32,977 nucleotides of DNA from Deinococcales bacterium (GTDB lineage Bacteria > Deinococcota > Deinococci > Deinococcales > JAAFIG01): assembly GCA_013298595.1 (NCBI GenBank), contig JAAFIG010000045.1:1-32977 (forward strand). Direction: 5' to 3'. Under the pieces are notes generated by a model, which searched no databases, was not told the origin of the DNA, and worked only from the letters and a program-made list of their open reading frames with translations. Both the position numbers and the translations under genes were made by a program. This document shows, piece by piece, positions 23,432 to 32,977 of this stretch (position 1 is the first letter of the stretch; every line of letters starts with the position of its first letter).

Positions 23432-25084
23432 TTACGGACCACCTAAAATCGGTTGAGTTTGGAAGCTACCTGTCACTTCGTTCTCGAGACTCAGATTTTT
23501 GGTATTTTCCGTGGCGGTTGTACTGATTTTCCAAGAAACAGTTTGTCCATTGCCATAGGCAGTCCTTGGTGTGTAGGTTAGTTTTCGGCAACCAAACCAT
23601 AAAGAAGCATTGGCAACAAAAGTACAACCTGCATCCCAAGTAATCGCTCCCGATTTAATCGTGCCACCAGCTCGAACTTGCAAAGCTGCCTCGGTCAGGG
23701 TGACATCCATATCTTCGGAAAAAGTAATGGTAATTGGTGTGTTAACGGCAAGAAACCCACCAATACGAGGAATCGGCGTGTACGCAATCACTTTTGGTGG
23801 CGCATTACCAACAGCAAACGTAAAACCATAGGCTGCTTGTAAAGCATTGCCAATTACATCGGTGGCAGAAATGGCAAGTGTGATCGTGTAAGTGGTTCGG
23901 GCATCCAAACGCGCAACAGGGCGACAAGTGGCACTCGAGGATGTTGTCCAAGTCCAAACGCAAGTAATGGACGGTTGACTCTGAAAAGCGGTTTGCACCG
24001 ATTGCTGATTCATTGGTTTACTAAAATTCAGTACAATTGGCGCATCAAACCTCGTGGCTCCTGGTGCAGGATCGGCAGGACTGTAACTGGTCAAAGCTGG
24101 TTTAATCGTATCTTGAACCGTGGTAAACCGCGATGTTAGCCCAGTCGTTATTACCACACCAGCCGCACTCTGAGCACTCGAGGCAAGGGTAAAATCATAC
24201 TGGGTTAAGAACGGAAATTGGCTAGTCGGTGTGCAAGTCGCAGTTTGATCGTTATCCAACCAAACCCAAGTACACGTAATTGCTGGCACACTCGAGAAAG
24301 CACTTTCGACACTGGTTTTATTCATGGCTCTCGAGAACCGCAAGGTAATTGGGCTGTTCAGAGGCACATCCACGGCATTGTTCGCAGGTGAACTACTCGA
24401 GATACTCGGGGGCGCACTGACACTCGAGAATTGCAAGGTGGTCGCTCCAGCTAAATCGTTGCCAACAACATCTTTTCCTGCCAGTACAATTGTGTAGGTC
24501 GTATCAAATTGCAACGCAGGAGTTACAAAATTTACAACAGTATTGCCTGCACTCCAAGTGGCAGCACCCAAGGTAATACCAGCACTCGAGGCTGAAAACG
24601 TACTGGTATTGATCGCTTCTGAAAACGTCAGTTGCACTTGGGTGTTCAGCACCACACCCGTGGAATTTAAAGCTGGTAGACTCGAGATCAGCGTTGGTGC
24701 TGTGGTATCTGGTGCAATTGGCGTAGCCGAAAGCAAGTTAGTCGTACCCGAGGTATTGCCCGTGGTGTCGCTGGCTGTCAGCCGAAAGTAATACGTTGTG
24801 CCATTCGCCAAACCGGTTTTTTCAAATTGTGTCGCGGTTTTTGCAATGGTTTCCTTAGCATTTTGATTCGCAGCACTGCTACCCCAATTCAATGTGTACT
24901 TCTCCAAATCAGGTTCGGTATTGGCAGTCCACTCCAGTTTGACTTTACCATCACCTGCGGTGGCTTTAAAACCAACAGGAGCAATTGGCGCAGTAATATC
25001 GGCGGGAGGCGGTGGCTCTGGGACTGGTGTAGGCGTACAAGCCAGCAGAACCGCAAGTAATAAACAAGGCAAAAGTTTTTTCAT
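23432..25084 (-). CDS. Exported lipoprotein with FN3 and four Big_5/SbsA Ig-like domains
   Basis: The product has 550 residues. The lipoprotein signal is MKKLLPCLLLAVLLACTPTP with lipobox AVLLAC, then a Pro-rich linker. Residues about 28-125 form a fibronectin type III domain (APVGFKATAGDGKVKLEW ... GTTYYFRLTASDTTGN). Four bacterial Ig-like domains follow, each with the pattern P-x-x-x-x-x-V-x-x-x-x-x-I-x-x-x-FS-x-x-M/I (TFSEAI, RFSRAM, NFSKPM, TFSEDM). It is a surface stalk or adhesion-type protein. ATG 25084 is 3 bp after the stop of the preceding lipoprotein gene, with AGGA upstream, so they form an operon. The protein probably once continued into an RCC1 propeller, one repeat of which survives just downstream. 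Confidence 0.88.
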   Translation of the reverse strand: MKKLLPCLLLAVLLACTPTPVPEPPPPADITAPIAPVGFKATAGDGKVKLEWTANTEPDLEKYTLNWGSSAANQNAKETIAKTATQFEKTGLANGTTYYFRLTASDTTGNTSGTTNLLSATPIAPDTTAPTLISSLPALNSTGVVLNTQVQLTFSEAINTSTFSASSAGITLGAATWSAGNTVVNFVTPALQFDTTYTIVLAGKDVVGNDLAGATTLQFSSVSAPPSISSSSPANNAVDVPLNSPITLRFSRAMNKTSVESAFSSVPAITCTWVWLDNDQTATCTPTSQFPFLTQYDFTLASSAQSAAGVVITTGLTSRFTTVQDTIKPALTSYSPADPAPGATRFDAPIVLNFSKPMNQQSVQTAFQSQPSITCVWTWTTSSSATCRPVARLDARTTYTITLAISATDVIGNALQAAYGFTFAVGNAPPKVIAYTPIPRIGGFLAVNTPITITFSEDMDVTLTEAALQVRAGGTIKSGAITWDAGCTFVANASLWFGCRKLTYTPRTAYGNGQTVSWKISTTATENTKNLSLENEVTGSFQTQPILGGP

Positions 25085-25087
25085 GAT

Positions 25088-27214
25088 TTAATCCTGAATT
25101 CTGAGGTATTTGAATAGCAATTCTTTAGACGACTTATTCCCTTCTGGGTCAGATGCCGTTAATTTAATCCGAACAATTCGCAAATCTGTGGTGTTGATAT
25201 TTTGAATACCCAGAAGTGTGAAGATATTGGCTTGATTTTTGCTATCAAGGGTAATTTTGATATCAGGAGCAAAAGCACCAATTGGATTACCATTGACATC
25301 GGCTGGTCGTGAAGTTACAAACCACTCGAGTGTTACAGGGTTTAGCTCAGGGTCTTCGGCACTGCCTAAAAATGTCACTGTACCATTAAATAAGCCAAGA
25401 TTCCCTTGCAAATCCAATGTTGCCAACGGACTAGCAATCCTCAGTTTATGTGGACTTTGGTTTGCAGCAGGAGGCAACACAGTCACCTCAACACTGCGAG
25501 TATCGCTTAAACCTTGTGGGTCGGTCGCTGTGATTGTCAAGGTGCGCTTACCCGAACTCGAGAAACTCATTTCAAAATCGCAACCACCCGCAGGGAATAC
25601 ATCAGTAGCAACACTGCTGACCCAACGCAGATTATTGCAATTGACTTGATCGTTAGGTTCGTTAATATCTCGAGCACCAGCGGTAAATACATAAGTCAGA
25701 TTTTGGTAAATCACCGAAGCATCATTGGGTTCGTACACACTACTTGTTGGGGCTGTATTGATAACGTTAATCACTTGGGATAGGGTCGCACTCGCGCCAT
25801 CTGAATCGGTCACTCGAGCTGTCAGGGTACGAGGACCAGTTGTGGTAAAGGCTTTAGAAACCACTTGTCCTGTGCCAATCACACCATCGGCTGGCAGATT
25901 AGAAGTCCAAGTAATGTTAAGCGCAGAACCATCTTCTAAGTCGGTTGGAGTAACACCAAATTTCACAGGTCGGTTCAAATCGGCAGTGCTTGGCACACCT
26001 ATGGTTGCGCTGGGAGCTTGATTCCTTGATTGAGCAATTGGGAAGCGTCTTTCAAAAACTCGAGTTTCCCACTTTTCCTCAATACCCCATTTATCTATTT
26101 CAATACCAAGATCAACACCTATTCCAGCATCAAGTTTCCAGAATGGTTTGCGTGGGAATTGTGCATCTAAGGCAACAAAAACCTCTGGCTTAACATAGAA
26201 TCCAACAGCTTCGTAAAGCAACAACTCAAATTTTACATTTGCAAAAGCAGTGGCATTTAGCGCCGCTGTTAGTTTACTCGAGTCCACAGTGAAAGTATTT
26301 GAAACTTCACTGAGATTTGACCATTCCTCATCGTATTTAGCCCCTGCCACAAAGACAAATTTCTGTGAAACGCTGATATCCACTTCGCCATCAACAGAAC
26401 CTCTCACACCTATGCTGAGCTGAATTATTGGGCGAACTACAACTGGAAACCCAAGTATCGAGAATGTATAAGCCTTAAAACGAATTTCACCAACTTGTAG
26501 TGTTTTATTTAGTGCAAAATTTTCTTTACCTTTTAAGGTTAAATTCGATTGCTCAGTAAATGTTGCTTTGGCTAAAAAATCAACATCAACAGGTGGAATA
26601 CTAAATTGTGGCGATAGATCAACATCAATATCTATATCAATGGCTAAATCAAGCAGCCCACTGAGAACAATTTGATCAGCCGTTGTCGCTGAGTTACCAT
26701 CTTTGTCATATAGCACTTTATTAAACGAAAAAGACGGACTGTTCGCCTGTGGGCGCAAACCCGTACCGTTTTGCAAACGGGTCACACCAGAAGTCAGATT
26801 AGTGGCTTCGATGTCTGTGCCAAGCAATGGAAATGTTTGTTTAATTTTCCCTTGTGTAATTGCGTCGGTCAAAGCTGCCAATTGGGTCTCGAGAATCATT
26901 TTGCCGTTTTCTGTACGCATCCCTGTTACCTTACGCAGCAATCCATTAGGCGCAAAGGTTGTTGGTGCACTCACCACAACATCGCCAATCGCAATTTTCT
27001 GACCCAGTGCTTGTGCTCCAGCAAAAGTCAATGTGTTAGCTTGGACTGTCTCGAGGGCGGCTTGTAATTCAGGTGTGAAGACTTTGGTTGTGGCAGGAAT
27101 AATGACTTCTGGTGTCGGTGGTGGTTTAGGCGTTGGTACGACACCTCCTCCGCAAGCAGCTATGAGACTGCCTAAACCAATAACCAAGAGGATATTTCTT
27201 AGACCGTGTTTCAT
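25088..27214 (-). CDS. Large exported lipoprotein with C-terminal PKD/Ig-like domains
   Basis: The product has 708 residues from ATG 27214, chosen because AAGGAG lies just upstream; an earlier in-frame start at 27247 would add 11 residues. The lipobox is SLIAACGGG at about residues 16-24. A Pro-rich linker and a unique N-terminal region (about 40-390, beta-rich, several DIDIDVD acidic stretches) come next. Three PKD/cadherin-like Ig domains follow, beginning near QAPSATIGVPSTADLNRPV, NTAPTSSVYEPNDASV and NQSPHKLRIASPLATL, with motifs such as TARVTDSDGASATLS and ITATDPQGLSDT. It is first gene of the lipoprotein operon. A composite GTCC-repeat element lies 58 bp upstream of the start, matching one upstream of the BTAD regulator. 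Confidence 0.85.
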   Translation of the reverse strand: MKHGLRNILLVIGLGSLIAACGGGVVPTPKPPPTPEVIIPATTKVFTPELQAALETVQANTLTFAGAQALGQKIAIGDVVVSAPTTFAPNGLLRKVTGMRTENGKMILETQLAALTDAITQGKIKQTFPLLGTDIEATNLTSGVTRLQNGTGLRPQANSPSFSFNKVLYDKDGNSATTADQIVLSGLLDLAIDIDIDVDLSPQFSIPPVDVDFLAKATFTEQSNLTLKGKENFALNKTLQVGEIRFKAYTFSILGFPVVVRPIIQLSIGVRGSVDGEVDISVSQKFVFVAGAKYDEEWSNLSEVSNTFTVDSSKLTAALNATAFANVKFELLLYEAVGFYVKPEVFVALDAQFPRKPFWKLDAGIGVDLGIEIDKWGIEEKWETRVFERRFPIAQSRNQAPSATIGVPSTADLNRPVKFGVTPTDLEDGSALNITWTSNLPADGVIGTGQVVSKAFTTTGPRTLTARVTDSDGASATLSQVINVINTAPTSSVYEPNDASVIYQNLTYVFTAGARDINEPNDQVNCNNLRWVSSVATDVFPAGGCDFEMSFSSSGKRTLTITATDPQGLSDTRSVEVTVLPPAANQSPHKLRIASPLATLDLQGNLGLFNGTVTFLGSAEDPELNPVTLEWFVTSRPADVNGNPIGAFAPDIKITLDSKNQANIFTLLGIQNINTTDLRIVRIKLTASDPEGNKSSKELLFKYLRIQD

Positions 27215-27271
27215 CTTTTCTCCTTTTGTTACCTTAGACTTCAACAAGCGAATGTATTGTGATTTGGTGGT

Positions 27272-27320
27272 GTCCGAAAGACCAGAGGCGGTATCCTAAA
27301 GTGTCCTCTTTATTTGTCCT
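27272..27320. promoter_or_regulatory. Composite GTCC-repeat element upstream of the lipoprotein operon
   Basis: Repeat units start at 27272 (GTCCGAAAG), 27293 (ATCCTAAAG) and 27303 (GTCCTCTTT), spaced 21 and 10 bp, with AGAGGCG in the long gap. A fourth GTCC is at 27316. Positions 27272-27306 match 27 of 35 bases of the element at 30799-30833 with identical spacing. Both have the same orientation relative to the minus-strand gene they precede. Confidence 0.7.
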
Positions 27321-27343
27321 GATAAATTTGGGATAAAGCTGTT

Positions 27344-27553
27344 TCAAACAGTTTCTTGGGGTTTTTCTTGGGCAACCAGTTTGGAAAAATCCAGTCCGCA
27401 GGTAACACAGAATTTGGAAAATGGCGAGTTGATTTGGCTATCGCAACGCACGCAACGCTCGAGTAAACGAGTACCGTCGTTGGCACAGAAACGTTCTTCT
27501 GCACGAGCGGGGACAGCTCGAAAGCACTTTGGGCAAATCCGAAAGTTATTCAC
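27344..27553 (-). CDS. Small double zinc-ribbon protein
   Basis: The product has 69 residues from GTG 27553, chosen because GGGAG lies 4-5 nt upstream; a more distal TTG at 27568 would place that SD inside the gene. Two zinc ribbons are visible. CPKC pairs with a single downstream FC plus ANDG, in an incomplete first ribbon. CVRC with FCVTCG makes a complete second one. The pattern matches the DZANK/zinc-ribbon modules that often accompany signalling proteins. It follows the BTAD regulator gene by 82 bp on the same strand, and the TGGTTA array sits in that gap. It is probably a protein-protein adaptor; no target is known. Confidence 0.7.
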   Translation of the reverse strand: MNNFRICPKCFRAVPARAEERFCANDGTRLLERCVRCDSQINSPFSKFCVTCGLDFSKLVAQEKPQETV

Positions 27554-27601
27554 CACACTCCCTCTCAATTGATTTCCTTGGTTTCAATTGTGTAAGTAGT
27601 A

Positions 27602-27649
27602 TGGTTACTGCGTGGTTATATTTTGGTTATAAGTTTTAGCGGCTGGTTA
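27602..27649. repeat. TGGTTA direct-repeat array with 11-bp period
   Basis: TGGTTA starts at 27602, 27613 and 27624 (exactly 11 bp apart), and again at 27644. The last copy lies inside the final codons of the BTAD gene and forms the palindrome GGTTATAACC. Eleven-bp direct repeats of about 6-7 bp are the classic layout of SARP/BTAD-regulator binding sites. The array lies just upstream of the zinc-ribbon gene. Confidence 0.6.
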
Positions 27650-30600
27650 TAACCAAGTCTTTTTGTTGTAAAAAATCACTTGCCAGATGCGATAACTCTA
27701 TACCCACTTCGAGAAATTGGCTTCGCGCAGTATCGAATAGTTTTTTCATACTCGAGTTATGACCAGCACTTTGGTAGGCTCGCATCGTCAATTCAAGGGC
27801 TTCTAAGTCGTATGGTTCGATTTCTCGCCAGATCATGCCAAGTCGAGCAGCTTCTTGTGGGTTACTTTCTGCAAGTATTTCCACAGTGTTTTTCAGTGCG
27901 TAAAGGAGTGTTTCTTGCACAGTCGAAAACCAGCCTTGTCCGAAACCACTGAGGTACGCACCACGCCATAAACTCGAGTCTTGATTTTTTAGAAATAGCT
28001 CGATATCACTCGAGATTTCACCTAACGTGTAACCATTGGTGGTGCTTTGTATTATTTCAGTTCCTATTTGCGTTCGTATTTGAAAAACAAGTTGCTTTAA
28101 TGCCGCTTTGCTTTCGCTGTCCGAAAGCTCGGGATACAAAGCCTGACACAAGTCTGCGGTGGTTGCTTCGCTACGTCCCACAAGTCGGGTTTCGAGTAAG
28201 TAAGCCAAGCATTCAAGACGTTTTCGTCCGCGAATTTTCAACGGCTGTTGTGCATTCTCGAGGTTGATTGTTCCAAGAACATTGATTTGCATTGTGTTAT
28301 TACTAGGAGTTTGGGTGGTTGTCTGGGTAACCATAAACTCTTGGATATGACCATAAAGACTTTGTTTTTGAAAGTAATTCAATTTGTCTTGTAACGTATT
28401 CTTATTTTGTGATAAATCGGCTAGCTGCAATTCTATTAAGTGTATTTCGATTTCACTTTTGGTTTTTTGTGAAAAACTTAAAGCCTGCAACAAATCACTT
28501 TCGGCGCTCATGGTATCGTTTATTTTTTTATAAATTCTTCCTCGTAGCAAATAAGCAGCTGCTTCAAGTGGAGCGACAGATTTACTACGAATTATTTCCA
28601 AAGCTTGATTGCAAAATGTTAAAGCATCTTGACTCTGACCATAATGCGCTTCAACCTCGGCACAACCTAATAAACCCAACGTCAAACTCATCGGAGTTTG
28701 CTCTTGACGATCAAGCAACATGGCTTCTTTACTATATTTTCGAGCCATAAATTCACTATACGGTTGCTGCCAAATACAGTACAACCGCGTCAATGCCTTT
28801 GCACAAGAAGAAATAGCACTGGGGAAATTTTGTCTTAAATGAATATCTCGAGCCTCGAGCAGAGTACTTTCGGCAGCTTGGTACTCGCCAAGATCTGTTT
28901 GTAGCATACCAAGAATATTTTGCATCCATGCACCACGTACAATATGCCCAGCTTGATGGGTTAATACTAGCGCTTCTAAAATACTGTCTCGGGCAATAGA
29001 AAATTGTCCAATTACCCTTCCGATATTGGCACGGTTGTACAAGAATACAGTGATTGAATCTAGCATCTCGAGTTGTTTGGCTTTTTCCACCAGTTGCCCT
29101 AGTAAATCAAAGGCTTCTTGTAATTGCCCTTGCATTATTAAGGCATTGGCTTTTTGCTCGAGTAAACCAATATGTTCTTGTTCAGTGAGGTCAGTTCTGT
29201 TAAGTGCCTGATGTAAGATTTTGTTACCTTCGCTGTGTTGCCCAATTTCTCGGTAAGCTATGATAACTCGTTCTAGTGTGCCAGCTTGAGCAATTGCGTG
29301 TAAATCACTATTGGTTTGCCAGTAGTTCACAGCTTCTTGATAATTTGCGGCAGCTACCAGTGTTTCAAAGTAAAGCGCTTTCCAGCGGCTTGTCTCTTGC
29401 TGGTCGGCAGACACCGCTCGCAGAATCTCGAATCCGTGAGGCGTCTGCCCTGTGTTATACGTTGATTTTACTAGGATTCGTACAATATCTAAGTTGTTAG
29501 GGGAAAGAGAATTTGCCCAGTGGGCAATTTCAGTTGCATTGCGACCAACTTGCATTAATGCTTCTCCTGCTTTTATTGCAGCTAAAACTTGCTTTTCGAT
29601 TGGTAATAATTTAACAATTTGAACTTGTAACTGAGCTTGCAATGTACGTTTTCCTGTGCGTATTGCATCGGCTATTGCTAGTTCAAGAATTTCAACAGCT
29701 TGATGATTCGGTAGTTGTGCCATATCTAAGTAACTCACAGCTATTTCTGGTTGGATTGTTTTAAGAATTTGGATTAATTGCTTCGCAAATTTTTGTTTTT
29801 GTGACATCGAGATTTGCTGTTGTATTACTTCGTTAAATAATGGATGGACAAAGTTATGGTTGATTAGCAGTTTTTGTATTTGTAGAATGCCGTATTTTTC
29901 TTGCCAATCCGACGCACTGACTTCAGACAATGCTTGCCAAACGCTTTCAAAGTTCGCAAAGGGTTCGGCAGGTAGCAAAGCTCTTATTGTTAGAATAGAT
30001 TGCAAAGCACTATCTTGATTAACTTGTTGTAAACGTTGTTCTATGAGTGCTTGAACAGTGAGTGGTAAAAAATCATTGTTTGGTGCACGCCAATACCATT
30101 GTGTACCATCTGACCACAACGACCCAGCACGTGTTAGATACCTCAAAAACTCTAAAGCAAACAATGGATTACCTTGGCTGCGTTGCAGAATCCAATCCAA
30201 AGCACTTTGAGGTATCTGCGTAGCCATTTCTTTGGTCAGTAAATCGCGTATTTCTTCGGTGGTGGCTTGCTCGAGAAAAAGCTGAATCGGAAAATCCTCT
30301 GGGCAAGTTCGACTTGTGGCTAACAAACCAACACCACGAACTCGAGTAAGTGCTTGGGTTAATTGATTAAGTTCTGCTTGTTGTTCGCTACTCATTTCAT
30401 GCAAATCCTCGAGATGGAGTACAAAAGGTACTAAGTGCGTGATTACTGCGATGAGACTTTCAAATATGGCTTTTTTAGGTATTGTTTCTTGTTTATCGAT
30501 TCGTTGTAATTGTATCTGTACCCAAGTGGGCAATTTTTGTGGTTTTGGTAGTAATTTGAGAATTTTTTCAAATGAAGTAGTGGCTGCAAGACTAATTGAA

Positions 30601-30749
30601 CGACAGGCAATTTCACGCAGCGCAGCTTGGGCTGTATGGGTTTTTCCTATGCCCGGTTCGCCCCAAACTGCTAGAAAAACACTGGTTTTTTTAGAAAGAA
30701 TTGGCTGTAAACGGTTACTAATATCTTGTACGACCAAATTTCGATTCAT
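27636..30749 (-). CDS. Large ATPase-TPR transcriptional regulator with C-terminal wHTH-BTAD
   Basis: The 1037-residue one-component regulator is of the STAND type. The P-loop GEPGIGKT is at residues 30-37 and the Walker B-like VLHLEDLHEM near 140. A winged-helix region ends the ATPase module. A long helical TPR-like array spans about 330-800. A C-terminal winged-helix DNA-binding domain (INVLGTINLENAQQPLKIRGRKR, about 820-905) is followed by a BTAD domain (SDIELFLKNQDSSLWRGAYLSGF ... EPYDLEALELTMRAYQSAG, to the end). Putting the DNA-binding module last reverses the actinobacterial SARP order. I chose ATG 30749 (AGGAG 12 nt upstream). The frame extends to TTG 30878, but that would place the operator repeats inside the coding region. 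It likely regulates itself and its neighbours. Confidence 0.88.
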   Translation of the reverse strand: MNRNLVVQDISNRLQPILSKKTSVFLAVWGEPGIGKTHTAQAALREIACRSISLAATTSFEKILKLLPKPQKLPTWVQIQLQRIDKQETIPKKAIFESLIAVITHLVPFVLHLEDLHEMSSEQQAELNQLTQALTRVRGVGLLATSRTCPEDFPIQLFLEQATTEEIRDLLTKEMATQIPQSALDWILQRSQGNPLFALEFLRYLTRAGSLWSDGTQWYWRAPNNDFLPLTVQALIEQRLQQVNQDSALQSILTIRALLPAEPFANFESVWQALSEVSASDWQEKYGILQIQKLLINHNFVHPLFNEVIQQQISMSQKQKFAKQLIQILKTIQPEIAVSYLDMAQLPNHQAVEILELAIADAIRTGKRTLQAQLQVQIVKLLPIEKQVLAAIKAGEALMQVGRNATEIAHWANSLSPNNLDIVRILVKSTYNTGQTPHGFEILRAVSADQQETSRWKALYFETLVAAANYQEAVNYWQTNSDLHAIAQAGTLERVIIAYREIGQHSEGNKILHQALNRTDLTEQEHIGLLEQKANALIMQGQLQEAFDLLGQLVEKAKQLEMLDSITVFLYNRANIGRVIGQFSIARDSILEALVLTHQAGHIVRGAWMQNILGMLQTDLGEYQAAESTLLEARDIHLRQNFPSAISSCAKALTRLYCIWQQPYSEFMARKYSKEAMLLDRQEQTPMSLTLGLLGCAEVEAHYGQSQDALTFCNQALEIIRSKSVAPLEAAAYLLRGRIYKKINDTMSAESDLLQALSFSQKTKSEIEIHLIELQLADLSQNKNTLQDKLNYFQKQSLYGHIQEFMVTQTTTQTPSNNTMQINVLGTINLENAQQPLKIRGRKRLECLAYLLETRLVGRSEATTADLCQALYPELSDSESKAALKQLVFQIRTQIGTEIIQSTTNGYTLGEISSDIELFLKNQDSSLWRGAYLSGFGQGWFSTVQETLLYALKNTVEILAESNPQEAARLGMIWREIEPYDLEALELTMRAYQSAGHNSSMKKLFDTARSQFLEVGIELSHLASDFLQQKDLVITSR

Positions 30750-30798
30750 CCAAAACCGATCTCCTGTATGGCTAGTATTTCCATTGTTTATTACGAAA

Positions 30799-30839
30799 GT
30801 CCCAAATGCTAGAGGCGATGTCCCAAATTGTCCCGAAAT
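30799..30839. promoter_or_regulatory. Composite GTCC-repeat element upstream of the BTAD regulator gene
   Basis: GTCCCAAAT at 30799-30807 and 30820-30828 and GTCCCGAAAT at 30830-30839 are spaced 21 and 10 bp, about two and one helical turns. AGAGGCG lies at 30811-30817. The arrangement and 27 of 35 bases recur at 27272. It starts 50 bp upstream of the regulator's ATG, suggesting autoregulation. Confidence 0.7.
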
Positions 30840-30889: not shown

Positions 30890-31366
30890 ACTTTGTCCAA
30901 AACGATATCGTATGGAATTAACTTAATCACTCTCGTTTGACCAAAAAAGCGATCAAACTGTCGTTCTTACTCACAAGACAGCACCGTCGCGCCTATGGAT
31001 GGACTGGTAGCACACAAAAGCGAAGCGGGCTGTTCGCTCTTCAAGCGTTAATTCCGTGTCGTTGTTACTCCTTTTCTTGCTCACAAGACAGCACCTTCGG
31101 GCTGTTCGCTCTTCTTCGGTTCATCAGTCAAAATACACGACTGATGAACACAATTCGGTATCAGCTGGTTTTCTTCACGCATCAACAGTGTGTCGTTTTA
31201 AAGGATAAATATGAGCATCTGTTGGTAAGGATATCAAATTTTTTACGGATGCAAAAAAATCAAAACGCTTTAGACTATAGGCTATACGTTTATGAAAATC
31301 CCGCAAGACAATTGGGGATAGTAAAGATATTGGTTTTGTATCTTTTGGCGACTGCGTTGCAACCAA
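30890..31366. other. Gene-poor region between regulator and peptide gene
   Basis: This stretch of about 480 bp holds the duplicated block and a perfect 9-bp hairpin (TCATCAGTC 31121-31129 with GACTGATGA 31139-31147). There is also a small stem AGCGAA/TTCGCT at 31019-31038. No CTCGAG occurs between 30413 and 31646. Open frames on both strands are low-quality. A structured untranslated RNA or a decayed insertion is possible; I see no convincing gene. Confidence 0.5.
30964..31114. repeat. Duplicated sequence block in the intergenic region
   Basis: CTCACAAGACAGCACC occurs at 30970-30985 and 31080-31095, preceded each time by TTCTT plus one base. CGGGCTGTTCGCTCTTC occurs at 31026-31042 and 31098-31114. 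In the second block the two parts are joined directly; in the first they are separated by 38 extra bp. Thus a block of about 40 bp is present twice, once interrupted. No open frame spans it credibly. Confidence 0.65.
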
Positions 31367-31495
31367 CTAATCCAATTCTAGGTAAAAGCCGCCAATTCGG
31401 TATGTTTCGGTGGTACTTGGTTGTGTATTATCAGCAAATACAGTGGCTCCAAAACATGTAAAAACGAAAATCGCTAACAAGCATATTTTTTTCAT
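31367..31495 (-). CDS. 42-residue exported peptide precursor
   Basis: Read on the minus strand: ATG 31495, strong SD AAGGAG about 5 nt upstream, stop TAG 31369-31367. The N-terminal 21 residues MKKICLLAIFVFTCFGATVFA are a textbook Sec signal peptide with cleavage after VFA. The predicted mature peptide is 21 residues, starting DNTQPSTTETYRIGG and ending FYLELD. It lies between the BTAD regulator gene and the divergent sensor kinase gene, with a GTCC repeat pair about 90 bp upstream and TTGTTG/TAGATT promoter hexamers 17 bp apart (31578-31573 and 31555-31550). A signalling-peptide role is an inference. The frame stays open for 63 more codons after the TAG, so a truncated longer protein is the alternative. 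Confidence 0.65.
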   Translation of the reverse strand: MKKICLLAIFVFTCFGATVFADNTQPSTTETYRIGGFYLELD

Positions 31496-31540: not shown

Positions 31541-31584
31541 ACCAATGTCAATCTATTTGTACTTTTTTAAATCAACAAGATATT

Positions 31585-31603
31585 GTCCCAAAATGTCCTA
31601 AAA
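31585..31603. promoter_or_regulatory. GTCC repeat pair between the peptide and kinase genes
   Basis: GTCCCAAAA (31585) and GTCCTAAAA (31595) are 10 bp apart, as in the promoter-distal pair of the two composite elements. Orientation relative to the minus-strand peptide gene is the same as at the other two sites. On the other side, TATACC at 31612-31617 could be the -10 of the kinase gene, 8 bp from the repeat. Confidence 0.6.
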
Positions 31604-31657: not shown

Positions 31658-32977
31658 ATGACCGTTGTTTCGCATAAGTTATCTGAGCAGCAGAAACGTT
31701 TTTTCTCACAATTAGCGTTTTGGCTATCTCGAGTAATTTGGGTTTTTTTTGCGGTCGTTGCTATTACTTTAATGCTTGTTTTCTCTTGGTATTTCTGGGA
31801 TTTAGCAACAACCTCCCCATGTTCAACAAATAATTGTAGTGCTTTGCTGACTTGGTTATCACAGTTTGGTTTTGGTGTTGAAGTTTTTGCAGTTTTGTAT
31901 TTAATCAGTTTTGTTGTACCGGTGCTGATTTGGCTGGCTGTGGCATTCTGGATTTATTTATCGCAACCGCATCAACTTTGGAGTGTTATTTTCTCGCTCT
32001 TTTTCTTGATTGGTTGGTATAGCGAAGTGAGTTTGCAGTATTTACGTGGCTCTATGCCACTGGCAATGGCTTATACACTCGAGTCGGTAGGCTTGCAAAA
32101 TGTGTTCTCGAGCCAAGCAGTTATTGGTTTTAGTGAGTATTTACGTGGCATTCTGAAAGTGATTGCCGATAATTTATTGGTGTTGGTGGTTTTTGCTTTT
32201 CCGAATGGTCGCTTATATCCGTTTTGGTCGCGCTATTATTTGTTGTTTTTTGCCTTGTTATCGGTTGGATATAGTTTGCCGTTTTTACGAGAAACCACGT
32301 GGAATTATGCACGCTTAGATTTTCCGTGGAATGTTGCAATCAATTTTTTGTTGTTGCTTGGCTTACTATGGGGGGCTTTGCTACGTTTTCGCCAGAGTTC
32401 CGATGCGGTGCAACAGCAAGTACGAAGTATTTTTCCAATTGTGATTGTCAGTGTTTTTGTCTATTTTTTGGATCTACTGATAGCCATTGTACGAAAAAAT
32501 GGTGGTTTCTCGAGTCAGGAAATGCAGTCACCTGTTTTGCAACCGTTGCTTGATTTATTATTAAATTACTTCAATAGTTTCACCATGATTTGGTTGGCGG
32601 TAGCAGTAGCTCAAGCCATTGTACGCCAACAACTATTTGATATTCGTTTTGTCTTAAATCGGGCTTTAGCGTACAGCACATTGGTTGTTAGTTTAGCGGT
32701 TATTTACGGTTTGATTATTGGTGGTTTAGGCAGTTTGTTTCGTCAGACGGATATCTGGCTATCGATTGTCGCCACGGGTGTTGTTGCTGTACTTTTTCAT
32801 CCGCTGCTGGTTATTTTTCGCCAAACTGCTAACCGACTTTTTTATGGTGAACGCCACGACCCGTACCGAGCCATTAGTAATTTAGGTCGGCAACTCGAGG
32901 GTGCTCATAAACCCGAGGAATTGGCATTTACGATTGTGCAAACCTTGGCTTCAACGCTGCGTTTACCATATGTGGCA
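31658..32977 (+). CDS. Sensor histidine kinase, multi-TM N-terminal part (3' end beyond window)
   Basis: From ATG 31658 (GAGGA 4 nt upstream) the frame is open for 440 codons to the window edge. There are seven or eight hydrophobic helices between residues 20 and 385 (for example VIWVFFAVVAITLMLVFSW and LLVLVVFAFPNGRLYP). The segment FDIRFVLNRALAYSTLVVSL, then ATGVVAVLFHPLLVIF, NRLFYGERHDPYRAISNLG and LAFTIVQTLASTLRLPYVA follows. This ...NRxLxYGERxDPYxxLxxLG... junction is typical of LiaS/NarL-type membrane histidine kinases in Chloroflexota and Deinococcota, where a GAF and a HisKA_3 kinase domain follow. The kinase itself is not in the window. It is divergent from the exported-peptide gene. 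Confidence 0.82.
   Translation, partial: MTVVSHKLSEQQKRFFSQLAFWLSRVIWVFFAVVAITLMLVFSWYFWDLATTSPCSTNNCSALLTWLSQFGFGVEVFAVLYLISFVVPVLIWLAVAFWIYLSQPHQLWSVIFSLFFLIGWYSEVSLQYLRGSMPLAMAYTLESVGLQNVFSSQAVIGFSEYLRGILKVIADNLLVLVVFAFPNGRLYPFWSRYYLLFFALLSVGYSLPFLRETTWNYARLDFPWNVAINFLLLLGLLWGALLRFRQSSDAVQQQVRSIFPIVIVSVFVYFLDLLIAIVRKNGGFSSQEMQSPVLQPLLDLLLNYFNSFTMIWLAVAVAQAIVRQQLFDIRFVLNRALAYSTLVVSLAVIYGLIIGGLGSLFRQTDIWLSIVATGVVAVLFHPLLVIFRQTANRLFYGERHDPYRAISNLGRQLEGAHKPEELAFTIVQTLASTLRLPYVA

Follow-up and report, generated by a model that had tools for sequence, protein, structure and literature searches.

A conserved local operator in an uncultured Deinococcales family, probably bound by a NarL/LuxR-type response regulator

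Within 4.3 kb of a Deinococcales genome, a composite repeat recurs at promoters, and one of the genes behind it encodes a large regulator; which protein reads the repeat? The locus lies in a 32,977-bp stretch of DNA (contig JAAFIG010000045.1 of assembly GCA_013298595.1; "the window" denotes this whole stretch). Two extended copies of the element are present on the minus strand, one in the promoter of a lipoprotein operon (27271–27307; 35-bp form 27272–27306) and one in that of a gene for an AAA-TPR-SARP/BTAD-like regulator, here termed the BTAD gene (30798–30834; 35-bp form 30799–30833). The first-pass annotation had put the identity of the 35-bp forms at 27 of 35 bases, with repeats spaced by 10 and 21 bp, and both values held. 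The best other match to either 35-mer in the window reaches 21/35, and the top match in dinucleotide shuffles (n = 100) was 23/35, below the real value. When the 4.58-Mb genome was scanned with the full pattern (up to two mismatches allowed), exactly two matches were found, both of them these elements. The extended element consists of three GGGAC repeats at offsets 0, 10 and 31 plus a CGCCTCTAG core, and the consensus of its 37-bp form is GGGACA-N4-GGGACA-tCGCCTCTAG..ATT-GGGACA.

A third, shorter copy, likewise reported earlier, contains two repeats 10 bp apart (31584–31602, minus strand; GTCCCAAAATGTCC at 31585–31598) and is located between a gene for a short exported peptide (minus strand) and a histidine kinase gene (plus strand). 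The distances between element and ATG on the minus strand agree with the annotated arrangement: 49 bp for the BTAD gene (ATG 30749), 57 bp for the lipoprotein operon (ATG 27214) and 89 bp for the third copy. The latter is also situated 54 bp upstream of the plus-strand kinase ATG (31658), a neighbour absent from the first-pass annotation. Exact matches to the short form, RTCCNAAANNGTCC, number four in the genome, three of them inside these 4.3 kb; the reversed control of this pattern likewise has four, and the signal therefore lies in co-location and not in the count.

The equal counts would suit a chance similarity or a dispersed repeat, but the probability of such an explanation is negligible: the match of 27/35 exceeds all shuffles, and the element is conserved in four genomes amid unrelated flanks, which contradicts chance. 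A search of 61 relatives with the 25-bp left part of the element gave matches with 0–1 mismatch only in four genomes of one Deinococcales family (G000, to which the window belongs, and G001–G003). Among these, the mean pairwise identity of the 37-bp element is 0.86, compared with 0.32 and 0.28 for the 45-bp flanks. Each genome carries one to three copies, all at promoters, and the spacing of 10 and 21 bp is kept in all six extended copies of the family. An Rfam search for an RNA element gave no family, and a promoter scan around the elements detected neither a usable sigma-70 consensus nor a convincing −10 sequence. The conserved local operator is genuine.

Two further repeated sequences were observed in the window. 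Two copies of a CTCACAAGACAGCACC(G/T)TCG stretch are intergenic (30963–30990 and 31070–31105), one of them overlapping a terminator-like hairpin. The hexamer CTCGAG is about 29-fold over-represented relative to base composition (872 occurrences in 162 kb, 30.5 expected; 160 in the window). Its density is 5–8 per kb in the G000–G003 family and in G012 and G016, and about 1.5–2.2 per kb in the other sampled families; it resembles a highly iterated palindrome.

The BTAD gene (27636–30749, minus strand) most likely starts at ATG 30749 and not at TTG 30878 of the mechanical ORF. It encodes a 1037-aa protein with Pfam AAA_16 and TPR matches, whose residues 809–918 match the AfsR SARP region model (E = 3e-8); a BTAD domain was found among its relatives only as a below cut-off match in that of G003, and the scan for its nearest named relatives turned up none. 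The gene is followed by one for a 74-aa double zinc ribbon protein (Pfam DZR; 27344–27568, minus strand), a homologue of which adjoins the BTAD gene in G001 and in G003. AAA-TPR-SARP/BTAD proteins form a large paralogous family (about 1000 aa each, mostly ~30% identical), with at least nine members in G000, that is at least eight further copies in this genome, and nine in G003. The lipoprotein operon (minus strand) begins with a gene for a PKD-domain lipoprotein (25088–27214) and continues with one for a lipoprotein with bacterial Ig-like and fn3 domains (23432–25084), the products being 51% and 60% identical, respectively, to their G003 orthologues, which stand behind the same element. The exported peptide of 42 aa (31370–31495, minus strand) is a possible further target. 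Very short exported proteins (42 aa in G000; 66 aa in G002, on the minus strand of L096 just downstream of 6032) are encoded directly behind the element, divergently from the kinase; the idea that the 42-aa peptide is a conserved signal to the kinase was rejected, as a search of the family gave no convincing relative.

The histidine kinase gene, of which the window holds the 5′ part (31658–32977, plus strand; HisKA_3/HATPase_c type), runs off the window end and continues on contig C52. The kinase/regulator pair was overlooked because it is cut by this end. The ends of the two contigs overlap exactly over 125 bp. Once joined, the kinase measures 722 aa, its N-terminal half containing about seven hydrophobic segments; on C52 the kinase gene is followed directly by the ATG of a response regulator gene (C52:13948–14589). 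Related kinases contain HisKA_3 and HATPase_c domains, and related response regulators a receiver and a GerE domain. Contig overlap and alignment show the gene pair in G000, a two-component system with a NarL/LuxR-type response regulator.

Comparison of the four family loci, the sample on which the linkage argument is based, separates these two candidate owners of the element. A histidine kinase and a NarL/LuxR-type response regulator adjoin it at all four loci, and every genome has a copy immediately in front of the kinase gene. This copy is short in G000 and G003 (in the latter at L051:10208–10226); in G001 and G002 it is extended and shared with a divergent gene for an exported protein. The PKD and Ig-like lipoprotein operon is found behind the element in G000 and G003, a gene for a 1540-aa exported WD40 protein in G001, one for the 66-aa exported protein in G002, and a BTAD gene in G000 and G001.

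According to the first-pass annotation, the BTAD protein regulates its own gene, the contact with the element being made by the SARP-type winged helix at its C terminus. The match to the AfsR SARP region and the position of the element ahead of the BTAD gene in two genomes speak for this proposal, as does the known spacing of SARP repeats, typically 11 or 22 bp (PMC10936776), which is near the observed 10 and 21 bp. It is nevertheless unlikely. The G002 locus (contig C25) contains the element and the kinase/regulator pair without a BTAD gene, and the BTAD gene of G003 has a promoter of its own that lacks the element. Moreover, the BTAD proteins encoded behind near-identical elements in G000 and G001 are only ~30% identical and belong to different branches of the paralogue tree, where G003_L052 and G000_L037 cluster with the G001 protein, and G003_L048 with those of G000 and G003; the BTAD proteins of the locus are non-orthologous and differ in their DNA-binding regions. 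BTAD autoregulation was accordingly dropped as the first choice on grounds of linkage and phylogeny. What stands of the annotated regulon is a small, local set of promoters whose direct repeats are helically phased and which connect the lipoprotein operon to the BTAD gene. The motif is, as had been proposed for verification, common to related genomes (all four of the family), but its presence tracks the kinase/regulator pair and not the BTAD gene.

The response regulator is present at all four loci. The family proteins are 77–81% identical to that of G003, and all four share the recognition helix KTVRNYVSNI, which argues for this protein as the owner of the element. On this basis, the NarL/LuxR-type response regulator encoded together with the kinase that starts at 31658 is probably the protein that binds the elements, and the BTAD gene is best explained as one of its predicted targets. 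The membrane kinase would sense a signal and phosphorylate the response regulator, dimers of which may recognize paired GGGACA half-sites, repeated directly at a distance of one helical turn (10 bp). The third half-site, two turns further (21 bp), would probably overlap the −35 region. The two-repeat copy at the kinase would mediate autoregulation of the kinase/regulator operon, and the three-repeat copies with the CGCCTCTAG core would switch on the genes for exported proteins and lipoproteins, activation appearing more plausible than repression. The BTAD regulator of G000 and G001 would then stand downstream in the hierarchy, as a target and not as the operator-binding protein.

The composition of the element allows a variant of this scheme in which two proteins read it, the response regulator recognizing the GGGACA repeats and an additional factor the CGCCTCTAG core. 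All six extended copies contain GCCTCT without variation, and the core is restricted to three-repeat copies, being missing from the short kinase-side copies of G000 and G003. The core could, however, serve the same protein as a spacer or as promoter sequence; no candidate for a second factor was identified, and the BTAD protein does not occur at all loci. We consider the participation of two proteins rather improbable. A two-input operator has a similarly low probability; here the kinase operon would answer one input, the surface-protein and BTAD genes would need both, and a cascade would lead from the two-component system to the AAA-TPR-BTAD regulator.

Another regulator of the family, not linked to the locus, is a very unlikely binder of the element. 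Close examination covered the linked genes, and binding by the linked response regulator is a prediction, which leaves some room for such a protein. Within each family genome, however, exact element copies and two-repeat halves are confined to these loci, as fits a pathway-specific, linked regulator, and one-mismatch matches to the two-repeat form elsewhere are at control level.

The proposed binding by the response regulator can be compared with three known systems. The ComP-ComA system of Bacillus subtilis resembles it in combining a membrane histidine kinase with a NarL/LuxR-type regulator and in having direct-repeat hexamer half-sites with a 4–5-bp spacer. ComA binds direct repeats separated by 5 bp (best) or 4 bp, and a direct-repeat site at a class II position is required for efficient transcription (PMC4797271). 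The corresponding spacers are N4 in the family and N5 in the more distant Deinococcota genome G017. The systems differ in that the ComA half-site is TTGCGG and that here GGGACA, and in the presence here of a third repeat 21 bp away, a CGCCTCTAG core and a local surface-protein regulon. In DosR/DevR of Mycobacterium tuberculosis, Lys179, Lys182 and Asn183 contact bases (PMC4082495), and the binding motif begins with GGGAC (PMC6448022), as does the half-site described here. The DosR helix (KTVKNYVS, chain 3c3w) resembles that of the family, with the common pattern K-T-V-K/R-N-Y-V-S. However, overall similarity is no closer than that of the NarL family in general (DosR ranks fifth among solved structures), and the DosR motif is an inverted repeat, whereas the family repeats are direct and thus do not constitute a DosR box. 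The AfsR/SARP regulators of Streptomyces share ATPase, TPR and SARP-like parts with the BTAD product, and their sites are also direct repeats in helical phase. Here, however, the SARP-like part is C-terminal, the spacing is 10/21 and not 11/22 bp in all six extended elements, and the element and the BTAD gene do not travel together between genomes, parting company in G002 and G003. Literature searches yielded nothing relevant on such a motif in Deinococcus and no binding experiment on this kinase/regulator/element system.

Beyond the family, GGGAC/GTCCC clusters were identified upstream of seven other Deinococcota kinase/regulator loci (G017, G010, G016, G012, G038, G032 and G110), and none upstream of five further loci of this phylum. 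The clusters at the seven loci are each matched by at most 2.5% of background windows (Fisher combination 5e-10, or 1e-7 once the five cluster-free loci are included), figures that are generous, since certain promoter windows were defined once the sequences had been inspected (operon starts in G017 and G010, a corrected start in G032), and that may rest on paralogues, since in the regulator tree the connection of the other Deinococcota with the family clade is not firm. In G017, the GGGACA repeats are 11 and 22 bp apart; this near-identical architecture, at a kinase/regulator operon that lacks a BTAD gene, is a further argument against the BTAD protein as the reader of the element. No BTAD gene was detected in the fetched parts of any of the seven loci.

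A GGGAC rule outside Deinococcota was rejected. At 68 loci from Chloroflexota and other phyla, GGGAC is not enriched upstream of the kinase (27 sites vs 33 expected), and the nearest outgroup, L213, has no GGGAC sites there. The regulators of the 68 loci are 46–64% identical, most with KTVRNH or KTVRNY helices; the lack of enrichment despite similar helices indicates that the half-site cannot be predicted from the helix alone. The 6-mers ATTATA, GAGTAA and ACTCAT are enriched in the kinase upstream regions of loci L213–L290 from other phyla, where they are perhaps the half-sites of those systems or AT-rich promoter sequence.

The system is ordinary in kind and well defined. It illustrates that an operator can be wrongly assigned to an eye-catching neighbouring regulator when the gene travelling with the element across genomes indicates a different protein. 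For an uncultured Deinococcales family, it provides a precise, testable pair of operator and regulator, in which a membrane sensor would be linked to surface lipoproteins and to a large ATPase-TPR regulator.
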